Below are positions 5,001 to 33,105 of a stretch of 64,000 nt of DNA, piece after piece. The notes under the pieces were generated by a model. It was not told where the DNA came from. It made no database searches and was given only the letters and a program-made list of their open reading frames with translations. Source of the DNA: Labrys monachus. GTDB lineage: Bacteria > Pseudomonadota > Alphaproteobacteria > Rhizobiales > Labraceae. Position numbers and translations under genes: made by a program. The stretch lies in NCBI RefSeq assembly GCF_030814655.1, contig NZ_JAUSVK010000001.1:2313501-2377500 (forward strand), read 5' to 3'. Every line of letters starts with the position of its first letter. Positions within the stretch are counted from its first letter, which is position 1.

Positions 5001-6041
5001 ATGACGAAGTTCGCGGAGCGCGTCTTTTCGGGCGTCCAGCCGACCGGCAACCTGCATCTGGGCAATTATCTCGGCGCGATCCAGCGCTTCGTCGAGATGC
5101 AGAAGAGCCATGACTGCATCTATTGCGTGGTGGACCAGCACGCCATCACCGTGTGGCAGGATCCCAAGGGCCTGCAGAACGCCATCCGCGAGGTGACCGC
5201 GGCGTTCCTGGCCGCCGGAATCGATCCCAAGGCCCATATCGTCTTCAACCAGAGCCAGGTCGCCGAGCATGCGGAACTGGCCTGGGTCTTCAATTGCGTC
5301 GCCCGCATGGGCTGGCTCAGCCGCATGACCCAGTTCAAGGAGAAGGCGGGCAAGGACCGGGAAGCCGCCTCCGTCGGGCTGTTCGCCTATCCCGCCCTGA
5401 TGGCCGCCGACATCCTGGTCTACCGCGCCACCCATGTGCCGGTCGGCGAGGACCAGAAGCAGCATCTCGAGCTGGCGCGCGACATCGCCACCAAGTTCAA
5501 CAACGATTTCGCCGAGTCGATCGCCTCTCATGGCCATAATGGCGGGTTCTTTCCGCTGCCGGAGCCGCTGATCCAGGGCGCGGCGACGCGGGTGATGAGC
5601 CTGCGCGACGGCACCAAGAAGATGTCGAAATCGGATCCGTCCGATCTCTCGCGCATCAACATGACCGACGATGCCGACGCCATCGCCTCCAAGATCCGCA
5701 AGGCGCGCACCGATCCCGAGCCGCTGCCGGGCGAGGAAGCGGGGCTGAAAGGGCGGCCCGAGGCGGAGAACCTCGTGGCGATCTTCGCGGCGCTGTCGGG
5801 CCGCACGGTGGCTGAGGTCCTCGCCGAGTTCGGCGGCGGCCAGTTCTCGACCTTCAAGACCGCGCTGGCGGACCTCACCGTCTCCCAGCTCGCGCCGATC
5901 GCCGGCGAAATGAAGCGCCTGATGGCCGAGCCGGCCCATATCGACGCCGTGCTCGCCGACGGATCGGAGCGGGCGAGGACCATCGCGGCGCCGATCATGG
6001 CTTCGGTGAAGGATATCGTCGGCTTTATCCGGTCCCGCTAG
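5001..6041 (+). CDS. trpS: Tryptophanyl-tRNA synthetase
   Basis: This 346-residue class I aminoacyl-tRNA synthetase charges tRNA-Trp in the cytoplasm. The first class I signature appears as NLHLGNYLG (HLGN at residues 19-22) and the second as KKMSKSDPS (KMSKS at 207-211). The segments [18 protein letters not shown] and [10 protein letters not shown] are characteristic of TrpRS. The length is normal and the ATG at 5001 gives the conserved start [16 protein letters not shown]. It stands alone, about 105 bases before dnaN on the same strand. In many Hyphomicrobiales trpS lies next to murJ or universal stress genes, so this placement next to dnaN is a local arrangement. Confidence 0.97.
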
Positions 6042-6146
6042 GCGCAGGCGCTTGCCTTTCCGCGCGCGGGGCGGCATGGTCTTCGCCCTTTTGACCGCAC
6101 GCGGCCCCGACGGCCGCGTGCGGTTCGCTACGCCAGGACGCATTCC

Positions 6147-7265
6147 ATGAAGGTTACGCTCGAACGGACCGCCCTTCTCAGATCGCTGGGCCATGTTCAT
6201 CGCGTCGTCGAGCGGCGCAACACCATTCCGATCCTGTCCAACGTCCTGATCGAGGCGCAGGGCGCCAGCCTCCTGCTGAAGGCGACCGACCTCGATCTCG
6301 AGGTGGTGGAATCCTCGCCCGCCGACGTCACCATGGGCGGCGCCACCACGGTGCCGGCCCATACGCTCTACGACATCGTGCGCAAACTGCCGGACGGAGC
6401 GCAGGTCTCGCTGGAAGGCGGCGGGGAGGCGACGCAGCTGATCGTGCGTTCGGGGCGGTCGCGCTTCACGCTGCAGACGCTGCCGCCGTCCGATTTCCCC
6501 GACCTCGCCGCCGGCGAGTTCCCGCATCGTTTCGAGCTCAAGGCCGCCGATCTGCGCCGCCTGATCGAGAAGACCCAGTTCGCGATCTCGACCGAGGAGA
6601 CGCGCTATTATCTCAACGGCATCTATCTGCACACCCTCGAGGTCGACGGCGACATCCGCATCCGCGCCGTGGCGACGGACGGCCATCGCCTCGCCCGGGT
6701 GGAACTGCCCGCGCCCGAGGGTTCCGCCGGCATGCCCGGCGTCATCCTGCCGCGCAAGGCGGTGGGCGAGATCCAGAAGCTGATGGAGGATGCCGAAGCG
6801 ATCGTGTCGGTGGAATTGTCCGCCGCCAAGGTGCGCTTCACCGTCGGTCCGGTGGTGCTGACCTCCAAGCTGATCGACGGCACCTTCCCCGATTACGCCC
6901 GCGTCATCCCGAGCGGCAACGACAAGAGCCTCGTCGTCGAGCGGATCGACTTCACCGCCGCGGTCGACCGCGTCTCGACGATCTCCTCCGAGCGCGGCCG
7001 CGCGGTGAAGCTATCGCTGGCGGACGGCCGCCTGGTGCTGACCGTCACCAATCCGGATTCCGGCACGGCGACCGAGGAGATCGAGGTCGACTACGATGCC
7101 GCCCCGCTCGATATCGGCTTCAATTCGCGCTATCTGCTCGACATCGCCGCCCAGCTCGACGGCGATACCGCGCTGCTGAAATTCGCCGATCCCGGCTCGC
7201 CGACGCTGGTGCAGGACCGCGAGGGGGCCTCGGCCCTCTACGTGCTGATGCCGATGCGGGTTTGA
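6147..7265 (+). CDS. dnaN: DNA polymerase III beta subunit (sliding clamp)
   Basis: This is the 372-residue processivity clamp that encircles DNA and tethers Pol III and other partners. It has the three-fold repeated clamp architecture. It starts MKVTLERTALLRSLGHVHRVVERRNTIPILSNVL and closes with the conserved YVLMPMRV tail, whose residues help form the partner-binding cleft. The ATG at 6147 gives the family N-terminus. recF follows on the same strand after 259 bases that contain a palindromic repeat, so the two may not share all transcripts. dnaA is not in the window, so this does not mark a visible replication origin. Confidence 0.98.
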   Translation: MKVTLERTALLRSLGHVHRVVERRNTIPILSNVLIEAQGASLLLKATDLDLEVVESSPADVTMGGATTVPAHTLYDIVRKLPDGAQVSLEGGGEATQLIVRSGRSRFTLQTLPPSDFPDLAAGEFPHRFELKAADLRRLIEKTQFAISTEETRYYLNGIYLHTLEVDGDIRIRAVATDGHRLARVELPAPEGSAGMPGVILPRKAVGEIQKLMEDAEAIVSVELSAAKVRFTVGPVVLTSKLIDGTFPDYARVIPSGNDKSLVVERIDFTAAVDRVSTISSERGRAVKLSLADGRLVLTVTNPDSGTATEEIEVDYDAAPLDIGFNSRYLLDIAAQLDGDTALLKFADPGSPTLVQDREGASALYVLMPMRV

Positions 7266-26614: not shown

Positions 26615-27218
26615 ATGACCGACGATCTGCGATCTTCACCCTTGAAGCCGGTGAAGGAATGGCATTCGCGGGGCTATCTGCCGCATTGGGAAGCAGGCGA
26701 AACGCCGCAGGCTTTGTTCTTTCGTCTGGCCGATTCATTGCCGAGGGGCTGTCCGGGAGCGTTGGGCGGCCGAACTGCGCGACACGCCTGCCGAAGTCAT
26801 GGCAAAGGAGCGCAGAAAACGCATGGAAGCCGCACTCGATGCGGGCTATGGAGAGGCCTTCCTGGCGACGGAGGCGATCGGTCCAGTCGTCGAGAGCGCC
26901 TTGTTGTATTTTGATGGCGAGCGATATCGGTTACATGCTTGGTGCGTCATGCCGAACCACGTTCATGCTCTCCTCACGCCGATGCTCGATCACTCCCTTT
27001 CGCGCATCGTCCATACTTGGAAGTCTTTCACAGCCAAACAGATCAATGCTGTTCTCAATCGAACGGGAAAAGTCTGGTTCGAGGAATATTTTGACCGCAA
27101 GATCCGCAGCGAGCGCCATTTCGAGGATGCTCGTTTCTATATCGAAGAAAACCCGGTCAAGGCGGGCTTGTCTTGCGATGCCGGAGCTTGGCGATATTCG
27201 AGTGCTTCCTGCATGTGA
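26615..27218 (+). pseudogene. REP-associated tyrosine transposase (RAYT), frameshifted
   Basis: RAYTs are single-copy HUH-type transposases (Y1_Tnp, IS200-like fold) thought to spread REP elements. Reading from the ATG at 26615 gives MTDDLRSSPLKPVKEWHSR, then GYLPHWEAGETPQALFFRLADSLPR, a typical RAYT start. After the GGGG run at 26745-26748 the reading must shift one frame to continue AVRERWAAELRDTPAEV and on to the stop at 27216-27218. The catalytic HUH pair is His-Val-His (26958-26966) in MPNHVHALLTP and the nucleophile Tyr is at 27138-27140 in FYIEENPVKAGL. Thus all catalytic parts remain and one extra G breaks the gene. An ATG at 26799 could still give a 139-residue product lacking the N-terminus. 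REP palindromes flank both ends. Confidence 0.85.
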
Positions 27219-27304: not shown

Positions 27305-28114
27305 ATGCCTGATCTCCTCGCTCCCGTTCCCCTTCGCGGCGCGGCTGCCGCCACGGCGTCCGGCTACGGCGCGATTCCGTTCGACCGCGCCGATCCGCGC
27401 TGGGGCGAGCCGCTCGTCGACCTCGCGGCCGAGGGGCTGCTCACCGAAAGCTGGTATGCCCGCACCGACGGCGGCAATGCGCCCTATCACCGGCCGATCG
27501 CCGGGGCGGTGGCGGTCGTCGCCGCCCGCCGCAGCGTCGCCGGGCTGCTCAGAAGGGCCGACGCGATGGTGGGCGCGCACGGCCTGCGCCTCAAGGTGCT
27601 CGACGCGTTTCGCCCGGTGGAGACGCAGGCCGGGTTGTGGGCCTTCTTCGAGGACAAGCTCGCCGCCGAGCGGCCGGAGCTTTCGAACGCCGAGCGCGAG
27701 GCGATCGTGCGCACCTTCGTGTCGGACCCACGCCGTTTCAGCCGGGACGACGAGACGAGCTGGCCGATCCACTCGACCGGCGGCTCCGTCGACGTGGTGC
27801 TGGTCGATGCCGCGAGCGGCGCCATGCTCGACCACGGCGCCGGCTTCGACGAGGCGCATGAGCGTTCCTTCACCGACCATTATGAGCGGCTGCTGGGCGG
27901 CGGTGCGATTGCCGCCGACGACCCGCGCCTCCTCAACCGCCGCATCCTCGTCAATGCGATGGTTAACGCGGGATTCACCAACTACGCGTACGAATTCTGG
28001 CATTTCGATTACGGAACGCAGCTCCATGTCCTGACTTTGCAGGATGGAGGCTCGCCCCATGCGCCCCTGGCCGCGTGGTATGGAACCACCGACCTGCCGG
28101 AAGGACCATGTTGA
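27305..28114 (+). CDS. D-alanyl-D-alanine dipeptidase (VanX/DdpX type, M15D)
   Basis: This 269-residue zinc peptidase hydrolyses free D-Ala-D-Ala. Zinc ligands and catalytic residues are visible: His156 and Asp163 in IHSTGGSVD (HxxxxxxD), and Glu230 and His233 in EFWHFDYG. The substrate-binding Arg lies in DAFRPVETQ. No signal peptide is evident, so it is probably cytoplasmic like VanX. The ATG at 27305 lies right after a REP element. Its 3' end overlaps the alpha/beta hydrolase gene by seven bases, making it the first gene of a four-gene operon with a MurF-like ligase. Roles in D-Ala-D-Ala recycling or control of precursor levels are inferred. Confidence 0.88.
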   Translation: MPDLLAPVPLRGAAAATASGYGAIPFDRADPRWGEPLVDLAAEGLLTESWYARTDGGNAPYHRPIAGAVAVVAARRSVAGLLRRADAMVGAHGLRLKVLDAFRPVETQAGLWAFFEDKLAAERPELSNAEREAIVRTFVSDPRRFSRDDETSWPIHSTGGSVDVVLVDAASGAMLDHGAGFDEAHERSFTDHYERLLGGGAIAADDPRLLNRRILVNAMVNAGFTNYAYEFWHFDYGTQLHVLTLQDGGSPHAPLAAWYGTTDLPEGPC

Positions 28115-28887
28115 CGCTTTCGACCTTCACCGCCAAGCACACGGCGCATGCCTTCGCCGCGCTCGGCAAGCCGCTCGCCGCGGACACGCCGCATGTGATC
28201 TGGGCCCATGGCTGGGGGCAGGACCACCATGCCTTCCTGGCGCTCGCCCAGTCGCTGGAACGGGCGGCCCATCACACCCTGATCGATTTTCCCGGCTTCG
28301 GCCTGAGCCCGCCGCCGGCGGAGGCCTGGGACACCGCCGACTATGCCGACGCCGTCGCCGAATGGCTGGCGACGCTGCCGCGCGGGCGGCGGATCTGGGT
28401 CGGCCATTCCTTCGGATGCCGCGTCGGCCTCAGGCTTGCGGCGCGGCATCCGGAGGCGATCGACGCCATGGTGCTGGCCGCCGCCGCCGGGCTCCAGCGT
28501 CGGCGCGGCTTCCCCGAGAAGCTCCGATTCTCAATCCGCATCCGCCTGTTCAAGGCGCTCAAGCTGCTCGAGCGCGCCGGCGTCGACGTCGCGGCCTGGA
28601 AGTCGCGTTTCGGCTCGGCCGACTATCAGAATGCCGGCGCGATGCGTCCCATCCTGGTCAAGGTGGTCAACGAGGATCAGACGGAGGTCGCCCGCCGGAT
28701 CCGCTGCAAGGTGGCGCTGTTCTATGGCGAGAAGGACGACACGACGCCGCCGGAGATCGGCGAGCGCCTGTCGCAGCTCATTCCCGGCGCGACGCTGAGC
28801 ATCCTGCCGGGGCTCGACCACCATACCATCCTCACCGACGGCGGTCCGCAGATCGCCTATGCCGTCTCGAACATGCTGGAGGGCTGA
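28108..28887 (+). CDS. Alpha/beta-fold hydrolase
   Basis: This 259-residue enzyme has the alpha/beta-hydrolase catalytic elements: nucleophile Ser101 in the elbow GHSFGC, an acid in YGEKDDTTPPE, and the histidine in GLDHHTIL near the C-terminus. An HGWGQ oxyanion segment lies early (WAHGWGQDHHAF). There is no signal peptide. It is translationally coupled to the dipeptidase gene (overlap) and lies three bases before the MurF-like gene. The natural substrate is unknown; context suggests a cell-wall-related amide or ester. Confidence 0.85.
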   Translation: MLTLSTFTAKHTAHAFAALGKPLAADTPHVIWAHGWGQDHHAFLALAQSLERAAHHTLIDFPGFGLSPPPAEAWDTADYADAVAEWLATLPRGRRIWVGHSFGCRVGLRLAARHPEAIDAMVLAAAAGLQRRRGFPEKLRFSIRIRLFKALKLLERAGVDVAAWKSRFGSADYQNAGAMRPILVKVVNEDQTEVARRIRCKVALFYGEKDDTTPPEIGERLSQLIPGATLSILPGLDHHTILTDGGPQIAYAVSNMLEG

Positions 28888-28890
28888 CGG

Positions 28891-30495
28891 ATGCTCGAAG
28901 CCACCGCCCCCTATGCCTTCCTGCTCGCCTTTGCCGGCTTCGCCCCGTTCGCCTGGAAGCGCTTGCTCACCTATCTGCACATCTTCCAGCAGGAAGAATA
29001 TGACGGCCCGCGCTTCCTGCGCTGGATGATCAAGAGCGGTTCGCTCGATACCCGCGTCAGCCTGGCCATCGTCGTGCTCGCTTTGCTGTCGAAGCTGGTG
29101 CCGGCGCCGTCCATCGTGCTCGCCTTCTTCATCGCCGTGGTCTTCCTCCTTTCCGCCTATCGCGAGGCCGATCCGCGCAAGGTCGGCAAGAAGAAGCTGG
29201 CGATGACAGAGCGCGCCACCCGCATCGCCCGGGTCGCCGCCGCCCTCCTGCTCGCCATCGGCATCCTCGGCATCGCGCTCTCGCTGCACCCGGCCTGGAT
29301 CGTCGTGCTGGTGCAGGCGATCCCCTTCGCCCCGGTGGCGGCGGTCAGGATCCTGCAGCCGCAGGAAAAACGCATCCAGCAGGGCTTCTGGCGCGAGGCG
29401 CATGAGAAGCTCAGGCGCCTCGCCCCCGTCGTCGTCGGCGTCACCGGCTCCTATGGCAAGACCTCGACCAAGCATATTCTCGGCCATCTGCTCGAAAGCG
29501 CCGGCTCGGCGCTGATCACGCCCGGCTCGGTCAACACGCCGATGGGCATCGCCCGCATCGTGCGCGAGCGGCTCGAACCCTATCACCGGCATTTCGTCGT
29601 CGAGATGGGCGCCTACGGCCCCGGCTCGATCGAGCGGCTCTGCCGCCTCGCCCCGCCGGACATCGCCGTCGTCACCGCCGTCGGTCCGGCGCATTACGAA
29701 CGTTTCAAATCGCTCGACAGCGTCGCCCGCACCAAGTTCGAGCTGCCGGCGGCGGCGATCGCCCGCAACGGCAAGGCGATCATCAACGATGCCGTCCTCG
29801 CCTTTGCCGACGCCAAGGCGTTCACCGACGACCATCGTGCCTCGATGGTGCTGGTGGGGCAGGGCGAGGGCAGCGACGCCAGGGTCCGCAGCGTCACCCA
29901 GGGCCGCGACGGGCTCACGGTGCAGCTCACTTTTCGCGGCGAGGACTACACGCTGTTCGCCCCGCTCTACGGGCTCCATCACGGCGGCAACATGGCGCTG
30001 GCCTTCGTCACCGCCTTGGCGATGGGGATCGACGCCGAGACGGCGCTGATCGCCATGAAGTCGACGCCGCAGATCAGCCATCGCCTCGAGGTCAGGCGGC
30101 AGGGCGACGGCACCACCATCATCGACGACGGCTACAATTCCAACCCGGTCGGTTTCGCCTCGGCGCTCGATCTCCTGCCGCTGCTGGCCTCCGGCGAAGG
30201 GCGGCGCATCCTGGTGACGCCCGGCATGGTCGAACTCGGCGAGGCCCATGCCGAGGAGCATCGCAAGCTCGGCACCAAGGCCGGCGAGGCGGTAGACATC
30301 CTCCTCGCCGTGGCGCCGGATCGCATCCGCGATTTCGTCGATGCCTACAAGGCGGCGAGGCCCGGCGGCGAAGTGATCGAATGCGCCGGCTTCGCGCAGG
30401 CCCAGGCCTGGATGGGCGCCAATCTGAAGCCCGGCGACGCCGTCCTGATCGAGAACGACCTGCCGGACCTCTACGAACGCAAGCTCTCGCTGTGA
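28891..30495 (+). CDS. Membrane-anchored Mur ligase (MurF-like)
   Basis: This 534-residue protein joins a membrane part (hydrophobic segments near residues 8-24, 55-90 and 113-150) to a full Mur ligase. The ATP loop VVGVTGSYGKTSTK holds Lys190. VNTPMGIARIV and VVEMGAYGPGSIERLC follow, then the TVAP-like HYERF region and a C-terminal ligase domain with IDDGYNSNP, as in MurF. MurF adds D-Ala-D-Ala to UDP-MurNAc-tripeptide, but normal MurF is soluble and has a uridine-binding N-terminal domain. Here that domain is replaced by membrane segments. A paralogue acting on a lipid-linked or other acceptor is plausible. Its TGA overlaps the GTG of the methyltransferase (GTGA). Confidence 0.82.
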   Translation: MLEATAPYAFLLAFAGFAPFAWKRLLTYLHIFQQEEYDGPRFLRWMIKSGSLDTRVSLAIVVLALLSKLVPAPSIVLAFFIAVVFLLSAYREADPRKVGKKKLAMTERATRIARVAAALLLAIGILGIALSLHPAWIVVLVQAIPFAPVAAVRILQPQEKRIQQGFWREAHEKLRRLAPVVVGVTGSYGKTSTKHILGHLLESAGSALITPGSVNTPMGIARIVRERLEPYHRHFVVEMGAYGPGSIERLCRLAPPDIAVVTAVGPAHYERFKSLDSVARTKFELPAAAIARNGKAIINDAVLAFADAKAFTDDHRASMVLVGQGEGSDARVRSVTQGRDGLTVQLTFRGEDYTLFAPLYGLHHGGNMALAFVTALAMGIDAETALIAMKSTPQISHRLEVRRQGDGTTIIDDGYNSNPVGFASALDLLPLLASGEGRRILVTPGMVELGEAHAEEHRKLGTKAGEAVDILLAVAPDRIRDFVDAYKAARPGGEVIECAGFAQAQAWMGANLKPGDAVLIENDLPDLYERKLSL

Positions 30496-31142
30496 TCGCC
30501 GATCGCAAGGCGTTCATCCGCGCCAATACGCGCCTGTTGCCGGTGCCCCACGCGCCGGAGATCAGCCTGCACGTCGCCGACGAGGTGACGCCGCTCTGGC
30601 AGAAGACCGAGGACGAATTCGGGCGCATCGGCCTGCCGCCGCCCTTCTGGGCCTTCGCCTGGGCCGGCGGCCAGGCGCTGGCGCGCTATCTCCTCGACCG
30701 TCCCGGCGCGGTGGCGGGCAAGCGCGTGCTCGATTTCGCCGCGGGTTCCGGGCTGGTCGCCATCGCGGCGGCGATGGCGGGCGCGGCCTCGGTCGATGCG
30801 GCCGACATCGACGGCTTCGCGCTCGATGCCATCGCCCTCAACGCCGCGGCCAACGGCGTCGCGGTGACCCCGGTCGCCGACAATGTGCTCGGCCGCTTCG
30901 ACATCGAGATCGACATCGTCCTCGCCGGCGACATCTTCTATGACCGCGACATCGCGGCCGAGGTGCTCGCCTGGCTCGAAGGCTGGCGCGAGCGCGGCGT
31001 GGCGGTCCTCATCGGCGATCCCGGACGGACCTATCTGCCGAAGGACAAGCTGTCTTTGCTCGCCACCTATGAGGTGCCCGTCTCCCGCGACCTGGAGGAT
31101 CTCGACATCAAGAAATCGAGCGTGTGGACGCTGAAGGGATAG
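30492..31142 (+). CDS. Class I methyltransferase, ETF-beta lysine methyltransferase-like
   Basis: This 216-residue SAM-dependent enzyme of the METTL20/nicotinamide-N-methyltransferase-like family has the following features. SAM motif I is LDFAAGSGLVAIAAAMAG from about residue 80, and the acidic strand-2 end is AADIDGFALDAI. The post-motif II region VLAGDIFYDRDIA contains the D-x-F-Y type element of the protein-lysine branch. The N-terminal LPVPHAPEISLHVADE and LPPPFWAFAWAGGQALARY are characteristic. Alphaproteobacterial homologues are known to methylate electron transfer flavoprotein beta, so this is the best guess. The start is the GTG at 30492 overlapping the previous stop. Its last 17 codons are duplicated in the downstream array. 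Confidence 0.83.
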   Translation: MIADRKAFIRANTRLLPVPHAPEISLHVADEVTPLWQKTEDEFGRIGLPPPFWAFAWAGGQALARYLLDRPGAVAGKRVLDFAAGSGLVAIAAAMAGAASVDAADIDGFALDAIALNAAANGVAVTPVADNVLGRFDIEIDIVLAGDIFYDRDIAAEVLAWLEGWRERGVAVLIGDPGRTYLPKDKLSLLATYEVPVSRDLEDLDIKKSSVWTLKG

Positions 31143-32089
31143 AGGCACTCGGCAGTGGGGGGTTGGATTATCGGACATCCGGCTGGATAGCCGGCCCGGG
31201 CGACGCTGCCCCTCAACCTTACCTTCTCCCCCGAAGTCGGGGGAGAAGGAGCGGCTGGCCTCGCGCCTTGAAAGGGACGGGCGAGATGATCGCATCACCG
31301 GAAAGGGCGCGACGTCGAGGCCCCCTCGCCCCGCTTTGCGGGGAGAGGATGAAGGTGAGGGGCGGCTGGATCGGCCACCTTTCAAGCCGGATGTGAAGCC
31401 TTTCCTCACGGCCCCGGCACGCCGACTCGAGGATCTCGACATCAAGAAATCGAGCGTTTGGACGCTGAGGGGATAGAGGCCTCGGCAGCGGGATGTTGGA
31501 TTATCGGACATCCGGCTGGATAGCCGGCCCGGGCGACGCTGCCCCTCAACCTTACCTTCTCCCCCGAAGTCGGGGGAGAAGGAGCGGCTGGCCTCGCGCC
31601 TTGAAAGGGACGGGCGAGATGATCGCATCACCGGAAAGGGCGCGACGTCGAGGCCCCCTCGCCCCGCTTTGCGGGGAGAGGATGAAGGTGAGGGGCGGCT
31701 GAATCGGCCACTTTTCAAGTCGGATGTGAAGCCTTTCCTCACGGCCCCGGCACGCCGACTCGAGGATCTCGACATCAAGAAATCGAGCGTTTGGACGCTG
31801 AGGGGATAGAGGCCTCGGCAGCGGGATGTTGGATTATCGGACATCCGGCTGGATAGCCGGCCCGGGCGACGCTGCCCCTCAACCTTACCTTCTCCCCCGA
31901 AGTCGGGGGAGAAGGAGCGGCTGGCCTCGCGCCTTGAAAGGGACGGGCGAGATGATCGCATCACCGGAAGGGCGCGACGTCGAGGCCCCCTCGCCCCGCT
32001 TTGCGGGGAGAGGATGAAGGTGAGGGGCGGCTGGATCGGCCACCTTTCAAGCCGGATGTAAACCCCGCCTCACGGCCCCGGCACGCCGA
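31092..32089. repeat. Tandem triplication, 333/334-base unit, spanning two convergent gene ends
   Basis: Three nearly identical units run 31092-31425, 31426-31758 and 31759-32089. Each starts with the last 17 codons of the methyltransferase gene (GGATCTCGACATCAAGAAAT and following). It then has an intergenic core with hairpins CCTTCTCCCCCGA/TCGGGGGAGAAGG and CCCCGC/GCGGGG. It closes with CACGGCCCCGGCACGCCGA, the last codons of the convergent DUF4105 gene. So the ancestral gene-to-gene interval was copied twice in tandem. Copies differ at only a few positions, which suggests a recent event. The short plus-strand reading frames inside the units are repeat copies, not genes. Confidence 0.92.
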
Positions 32090-33065
32090 TGCGGATCAGG
32101 CGCGAGAAATCCGGGCTGGCGTCCGCCGCGCGGGCGCGCGCCGTGATCCGCCCGCGCTCGCGCAGCTCGGCGAGGGAGACGTCGCGGTCGAGCAGGCCGT
32201 GGTCATAGGCATAGTCCGGCAGATAGCCGGTCAGCACGATGCGCCAGTCGAGCGGCAGCGACGGGGCGAGCCGGCGGGCGAGCCGGAACAGCACCGTCGT
32301 GCAGTTGGCCGTCAGCGTGTTGTAGAAGCGCGGCGTCGCGGCGAGGTCGTTGGCTTCGGCGAGCACTTCCAGGAACATCTCGCGCGCCTGCTGCGGCGTG
32401 ACCTTGACGTGGAAGAGCTGCACATCCTCGCCGCGCACATTGGAGCGGACGCGGACGATGTCACGTTCGTCGGCGCCGATGACGACGAGTTCGTTCACCT
32501 TGAAGAAGCCGGACAGCTCCGAATAGACCTCGCCGCGTTTGCGCCGCACCTCGACCGAAAACGCGATATGGCTGCCGTCGGCGAAGCCGAAGCTCACCAG
32601 CGTGTGGGCGATGGCGGGGCCCGCCCAGTAGGAATTGATCAGATCGACGGCCTCGATGGTGTCGAGATCATAGGTCCGGTCTTCCCAGCGCTCGGTGGCG
32701 TCGCTGTCCGAGCGCCAGTCGAAATTCCGGACATCGGCGAGATGCGCCACATGCCCGTCGATCCGTGCCGTCAGGGTGCGCGCGACATCCGGCGCCCAGT
32801 CCCGGTCGTTGCGGGGTTCGAGCGCCGACCACCAGGCGATGAGCGCGATGCCGGCGGCGACATAGGGCAGCAGGAGCAAAGGCCGCCGGCGGACCAGCGC
32901 CCACAGCGCGAGGGCAAAGGCCGACAGCCACAGCGCCTGCGCGATGCCGCGCAGCGGCGCGCCCGTGTCGAGCCGGTAGCCGAGGGCCAGCAATCCCCAG
33001 GCGGAGGCGGCGACCAGCAGCAGCGCCAGCACGCTCCGGCCGATGATCGAGGCGAACCGGGCCAT
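32070..33065 (-). CDS. DUF4105-domain membrane protein
   Basis: This 331-residue protein has two or three N-terminal membrane segments (about residues 5-25 and 38-75), followed by a soluble domain that matches DUF4105. The domain includes RNFDWRSDSDATERWEDRTYDLDTI and a later TLTANCTTVLF segment with a conserved Asn-Cys, reminiscent of cysteine peptidase-like folds. Function is unknown. The ATG at 33065 begins just before the first membrane segment. It is the third gene of a minus-strand group with two methyltransferases upstream. Its last codons form the end of the tandem repeat unit. Confidence 0.8.
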   Translation of the reverse strand: MARFASIIGRSVLALLLVAASAWGLLALGYRLDTGAPLRGIAQALWLSAFALALWALVRRRPLLLLPYVAAGIALIAWWSALEPRNDRDWAPDVARTLTARIDGHVAHLADVRNFDWRSDSDATERWEDRTYDLDTIEAVDLINSYWAGPAIAHTLVSFGFADGSHIAFSVEVRRKRGEVYSELSGFFKVNELVVIGADERDIVRVRSNVRGEDVQLFHVKVTPQQAREMFLEVLAEANDLAATPRFYNTLTANCTTVLFRLARRLAPSLPLDWRIVLTGYLPDYAYDHGLLDRDVSLAELRERGRITARARAADASPDFSRLIRIGVPGP

Positions 33066-33105
33066 CCTGTCTCCGTTCGGGGCGCCCGGCATCCGCGGCC
33101 GCCGT

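Follow-up and report, generated by a model that had tools for sequence, protein, structure and literature searches.

A membrane-anchored MurF-like ligase, with a partner hydrolase and a divergent Ddl, appears to have replaced canonical murF and ddl in Labrys monachus and other bacteria

The locus described here raises the question of whether a MurF-like ligase bearing a membrane domain serves a pathway of its own beside the standard mur genes, as an initial annotation of this DNA had proposed, or is itself the housekeeping enzyme. The window, a stretch of 64,000 nucleotides of the Labrys monachus genome (contig NZ_JAUSVK010000001.1, positions 2,313,501 to 2,377,500), contains four open reading frames on the plus strand at 27305-31142, all of which were recovered at the positions first assigned to them. 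These encode an M15 peptidase (27305-28114; 269 aa; Pfam Peptidase_M15, 9e-19), an alpha/beta hydrolase, hereafter ABH (28108-28887; 259 aa; Abhydrolase_1, 1e-23), a MurF-like ligase, hereafter MurF* (28891-30495; 534 aa; Mur_ligase_M, 2e-30; Mur_ligase_C, 7e-12) and a methyltransferase (30492-31142; 216 aa; matches to PrmA, MTS and Methyltransf_16), the GTG start codon of which overlaps the stop codon of MurF*. Since neighbouring genes either overlap or lie 3 bases apart, translational coupling is plausible. The order of the four genes was identical in three named Labrys records (L036-L038), at 65-80% identity. MurF* was 76-79% identical in these records and 76-78% identical in four genomes of the same genus.

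Immediately upstream of the M15 gene, an IS200-like Y1_Tnp protein of 139 aa is encoded at 26799-27218 on the plus strand, flanked by the REP-like repeats GGACGTCCGC and GGGCGGGATGCCCGC; from its size and context we take it to be RAYT-like. A tandem array at 31095-32089 comprises 3.0 copies of a 333-base unit with 97% matches, each unit opening with a sequence nearly identical to the final ~45 bases of the methyltransferase gene. Downstream of the array, a gene on the minus strand (32070-33092) encodes a protein with an Lnb_N periplasmic domain (PF13387, 154.7 bits).

MurF* possesses a Mur ligase core, in which both Mur_ligase_M and Mur_ligase_C score over their cut-offs and residues T185, G186, S187, K190 and T191 of the P-loop GVTGSYGKTS (residues 183-192; 29437-29466, plus strand) are invariant in 29 sequences. 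The AF2 model had a mean pLDDT of 91.2 and its best fold match was MurF 3zl8 (Z 36.9, rmsd 4.4, 366 aligned). The top structural matches were MurF structures, and the description of the core as MurF-like is therefore correct. Against the curated model TIGR01143 the protein scored about 205.5-205.9 bits, below the cut-off of 288.6, with a match that begins at position 65 of the 418 in the profile and ends at 402. The N-terminal domain of canonical MurF binds the UDP moiety. That a membrane domain takes its place in MurF*, as originally noted, is upheld by the late start of the profile match and by residues 1-178 (28891-29424, plus strand), which are helical and hydrophobic. Modelled alone with AF2, this domain gave a pLDDT of 95.1, and Q33, Y37, T106, R108 and P157 are invariant in 29 sequences. 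A fold search with the membrane domain alone returned no match at E <= 0.001, and the best structural match (Z 4.3, rmsd 6.4, 108 aligned) does not imply a novel fold; structure prediction, which had been suggested for this domain, thus produced a confident model with no convincing structural match. Given the positive-inside rule and a cytoplasmic core, it is plausible that Q33, Y37, T106, R108 and R111 of the model lie at the cytoplasmic face and form a candidate headgroup site.

Comparison of the core in 46 MurF* and 33 canonical MurF rows, with L055 left out, identified 22 positions common to both at >=90% and eight that set MurF* consistently apart; the N at 216, M241, A417, S421, D445 and KGS at 521-523 typical of canonical MurF differ in nearly all MurF*. 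The eight consistent differences suggest that the substrate of MurF* may differ from that of canonical MurF. In a quick tree of the core, MurF* formed one group (47 sequences) apart from canonical MurF (33 sequences) with an SH-aLRT of 94. This tree included L055 and omitted L095, the P-loop of which was missed by the search pattern; the canonical copies of genomes G370, G250 and G074 are absent from it, having either not been picked or fallen under the score limit. Alignment A1 excluded L055 and L065-L069. The P-loop of the L095 protein (genome G746, 5162-6583) reads TGSFGKS in place of TGSxGKT.

The genome of L. monachus is a single contig of 6,920,400 bases and is 100% complete. A search with the Mur ligase central domain yielded five proteins: MurF*, MurE, MurD and MurC, the latter three above the cut-offs of their NCBIfam models, and a protein encoded at 6379309 that was taken as FolC. 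The MurF profile found no MurF-type match in this genome except MurF*, the remainder being MurC, MurD and MurE. The dcw cluster has the order ftsI-murE-mraY-murD-ftsW-murG-murC-murB-ftsQ-ftsA-ftsZ, in which ftsI, ftsW, murG, ftsQ and ftsZ were identified from sequence and position only. Only 93 bp separate murE from mraY and 175 bp murB from ftsQ; it follows from these adjacencies that neither murF nor ddl occupies its usual position. Canonical ddl was not found anywhere in the complete genome, and the sole Ddl-type protein is an atypical one of 400 residues, hereafter Ddl*, encoded ~306 kb from the MurF* locus and scoring 169.2 bits against the TIGR01205 cut-off of 245.65. Since a complete genome lacks both canonical murF and canonical ddl, MurF* most likely serves as the housekeeping enzyme. 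The initial annotation had itself proposed a search for a separate murF, the absence of which would point to this reading, and its preferred alternative, a further pathway that would edit the cell wall or protect the cell alongside the standard mur genes, is rejected here because the genome has no other murF or ddl for such a pathway to accompany. In favour of such a pathway are the pairing of a VanX-like dipeptidase with a ligase whose acceptor domain is unusual and the occurrence of both MurF types in a few genomes; against it, in addition to the gene content of Labrys, stands the strong mutual exclusion of the two types in two unrelated classes, and we regard it as highly improbable.

This exclusion emerged from the distribution of MurF*, which was detected in Alphaproteobacteria, Desulfovibrio, an Opitutales bin, a Rickettsiales bin and Clostridia including Christensenellaceae. 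Profile scores were bimodal, with full-length matches in 16 of 389 alphaproteobacterial genomes (E <= 5.7e-164) and the next match at 6.2e-65. Six of 199 genomes in the class of Desulfovibrio and 37 of 243 in that of Christensenella carried the gene. Among 60 sampled genomes of the order to which Labrys belongs, MurF* was restricted to the five Labrys genomes, suggesting that Labrys probably gained it by transfer. None of 72,556 plasmid records covered >=80% of MurF*, with 18 weak matches observed.

Canonical MurF was present in 3 of 16 alphaproteobacterial genomes with MurF* and in 30 of 30 without (Fisher 5.5e-9, uncorrected for relatedness), counting among the 30 a copy in G039 that is near full length and just under the cut-off, and among the three a copy in G250 that is also under it. 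In Clostridia, canonical MurF exceeded the cut-off in 1 of 37 genomes with MurF* and 31 of 32 without (Fisher 2.5e-17, likewise uncorrected). The canonical MurF of two alphaproteobacterial exceptions, G170 and G370, looks intact, and the G250 copy is without key motifs. A further genome, G120, was scored as lacking canonical MurF and keeps a decayed remnant of it, a MurE-MurF fusion (L116, 5654-8065, minus strand) in which the N-terminal domain is kept and the P-loop and C-terminal domain are lost; this is possibly a retained UDP-MurNAc-binding domain. Among 31 genomes with MurF*, many of them incomplete bins, canonical MurF was over the cut-off in G062 and G074 and partial in G070. MurF* thus occurs together with a canonical MurF that is apparently intact or over the cut-off in G170, G370, G843, G062 and G074, and may act differently in these genomes. 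G035 was rejected as a carrier of both types, its best match starting at residue 175 and not being MurF*.

The position of the genes in other genomes was also informative. In Micavibrio (L048) the dcw cluster runs murG-murC-murB, followed by MurF* and ABH in inverted orientation, Ddl* at the position of ddl, and ftsQ-ftsA-ftsZ, with ftsQ assigned from position only; by sequence, L045 has the same layout. Ddl* adjoins murB in G370, and in two clostridial genomes murE is followed directly by mraY.

A scan of named genomes yielded 34 loci. Three spirochaete matches (L065-L067), which show 26-30% identity and lack ABH, were excluded as presumably ordinary MurF-like proteins, and L068 and L069 lie at contig ends where a mere scrap of MurF* remains. 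In the loci L036-L064, ABH adjoins MurF* in 29 of 29, once on the opposite strand, and a relative of Ddl* lies within 24 of 29; the five loci without a local Ddl* comprise the three from Labrys and two truncated at contig ends. The order ABH-MurF*-Ddl* on a single strand was found in all 16 further clostridial loci analysed, from 37 available. An ABH orthologue was present in 20 of 20 genomes with MurF* and 0 of 15 without, and Ddl* in 16 of 16 alphaproteobacterial genomes with MurF* and 0 of 30 without. The catalytic triad of ABH was kept in every readable row of 46 (Ser in 46, Asp and His in 45 each, with one gap apiece). No NCBIfam model matched ABH at its cut-off, and its closest relatives in the PDB are a mixed set of esterases and hydrolases that point to no single function.

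An M15 dipeptidase gene lies next to ABH in 7 of these 29 loci, with a fragment of one in addition; the methyltransferase gene was beside MurF* in L036-L038 from Labrys and in none of the others. On these counts both were rejected as core parts. Conservation of the neighbourhood therefore extends to ABH and, outside Labrys, to Ddl*, and does not include the outer genes, and the four-gene unit initially proposed stands for the hydrolase and ligase, with a sporadic dipeptidase, a methyltransferase found only in Labrys, and a divergent Ddl that had been missed, being unlinked in Labrys. The M15 dipeptidase accompanies the module only occasionally, as an accessory, and the methyltransferase is probably outside the conserved system. 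The M15 protein aligns with VanX 1r44, has the zinc-site motifs HSxGxxxD and E-x-WH, and shows no signal peptide by eye.

Taken together, the loss of ddl with murF, the joint gain of the three module genes and their placement within dcw clusters suggest that MurF* is the housekeeping ligase which adds a terminal dipeptide of the D-Ala-D-Ala type to MurNAc-tripeptide, and that a Ddl*-ABH-MurF* module has probably replaced canonical ddl and murF. This replacement appears to span Labrys, many Alphaproteobacteria, Desulfovibrio and Clostridia; the role of MurF* is a likely one, drawn from genome content. In the proposed scheme, MurC, MurD and MurE would make UDP-MurNAc-tripeptide, Ddl* would produce D-Ala-D-Ala or a D-Ala-X dipeptide, and MurF*, its ATPase facing the cytoplasm, would join the dipeptide to the tripeptide. 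The substrate of ABH may be either the dipeptide or the product, and the M15 dipeptidase, where present, would clear free D-Ala-D-Ala.

The nature of the dipeptide depends upon Ddl*. Residues E16, H111, S199/S200, K269, Y270, R327, D329, E343 and N345 are invariant in 24 rows and make up the D-Ala-1 site and the catalytic residues of the ATP-grasp fold. In Ddl, the SLxP serine contacts the carboxylate of the second substrate. This serine is kept in 8 of 8 canonical comparators and in 0 of 39 readable Ddl*, which have an aromatic residue or His instead; the L055 row was unreadable and was not counted. Such a change might indicate a different terminal unit, whereby, by analogy with the logic of VanA and VanX, Ddl* would join D-Ala to a residue other than D-Ala, MurF* would add this unit, ABH would hydrolyse a protecting or mis-incorporated ester, and M15 would remove competing D-Ala-D-Ala. 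The conserved triad of ABH and the M15 gene beside 7 of 29 modules, plus the fragment, are consistent with this scheme; most modules are, however, without M15, and the catalytic residues and D-Ala-1 site of Ddl* are otherwise kept. Moreover, canonical MurF is paired in G170 and G370 with Ddl* as the only Ddl, suggesting an ordinary product, an argument weakened by the tolerance of MurF for D-Ala-D-Lac. On balance a different terminal unit seems fairly improbable.

For the housekeeping ligase proposed here, there are two candidate acceptors. The uridine-binding domain is gone, and Q33, Y37, T106, R108 and R111 are conserved at the membrane face together with preceding lysines, which suggests that the acceptor could be lipid I- or lipid II-tripeptide instead of the UDP form; we advance this tentatively, at somewhat below even probability. 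Alternatively, MurF* may use soluble UDP-MurNAc-tripeptide and D-Ala-D-Ala and be merely tethered near MraY, with the order of the pathway unchanged and the domain serving as an anchor. This is a version of the favoured explanation, the claim of replacement being common to both, and has close to an even chance of being correct. A comparison of MraY covered 14 sequences from genomes with MurF* and 11 from genomes without; no MraY was recovered from L119, and three genomes carrying both types of MurF were omitted. No column qualified as a diagnostic change, defined as a residue in >=90% of the group without MurF* and <=35% of the group with it. A change in MraY specificity as the mark of a reordered pathway was accordingly rejected, and the finding favours tethering. 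The same is true of G170 and G370, where an intact-looking dcw murF beside Ddl* as the only Ddl found suggests that the product of Ddl* is usable by normal MurF. Unchanged MraY and the pairing of Ddl* in three genomes with a dcw murF, decayed in G250, thus argue for ordinary chemistry. Conversely, tethering does not explain why the UDP-binding N-terminal domain is absent, with profile matches beginning at ~65, or why the invariant residues of the membrane domain exceed the needs of a plain anchor, and it leaves the constant hydrolase ABH unaccounted for.

The textbook pathway offers no step for ABH, which counts against a plain housekeeping reading. In a further scheme, an appreciable minority of bacteria would assemble their peptidoglycan precursors in another order: MraY, and perhaps MurG, would use the tripeptide, MurF* would add the D-Ala-D-Ala-type end to lipid I or lipid II at the membrane, and an obligate serine hydrolase would process or deprotect a dipeptide from a ligase whose second-substrate site is altered. 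We consider this full scheme rather unlikely.

In accounts of wall synthesis, the MurF and Ddl steps are treated as universal and essential, and as targets for drugs. Several lineages nevertheless appear to carry out the final cytoplasmic step by means of a membrane enzyme and the hydrolase ABH, and none of the curated MurF family models fits the enzyme of the MurF* carriers. Whether MurNAc-pentapeptide must be complete before transfer to the lipid carrier is a question that MurF* makes directly testable, and the replacement has a bearing on the responses of gut Clostridia and Desulfovibrio to MurF inhibitors, D-cycloserine and glycopeptides. No membrane-anchored MurF or pathway of this kind was found in searches of an open-access library without bioRxiv preprints; PMC4153887 and PMC9377095 are unrelated.

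Each component has a recognisable counterpart among known systems. The M15 protein resembles VanX and DdpX in its zinc-site motifs HxxxxxxD and ExxH, which align with 1r44, but scored 39.2 bits against the VanX cut-off of 320 and 74.9 against the DdpX-type cut-off of 176, and its gene accompanies only some modules. Ddl* belongs to the ATP-grasp fold family of canonical Ddl (TIGR01205), keeps the catalytic residues and has Ddl and VanA as its closest PDB sequences; it differs in its length of about 400 residues, in the lost SLxP serine and in the sub-cut-off score of the Labrys copy. MurT is a Mur ligase core without the UDP-binding domain that works on a lipid-linked precursor. MurF* matches the MurT fold of MurT/GatD (PDB 9sq9) with Z 25.9, rmsd 4.6 and 342 aligned, but resembles MurF more closely, carries a membrane domain and has ABH and Ddl* as constant neighbours. 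MurT with its partner GatD amidates D-Glu (PMC11915815). With canonical MurF (TIGR01143; PDB 3zl8, 4qf5, 4cvm), MurF* shares the fold of the ATPase and C-terminal core and the P-loop, and it is the only MurF in most carriers. Unlike canonical MurF, it has a membrane domain, eight core changes, a score below the cut-off and a separate group in the tree, and it lies outside the murE-murF tandem in the constant company of ABH and Ddl*.
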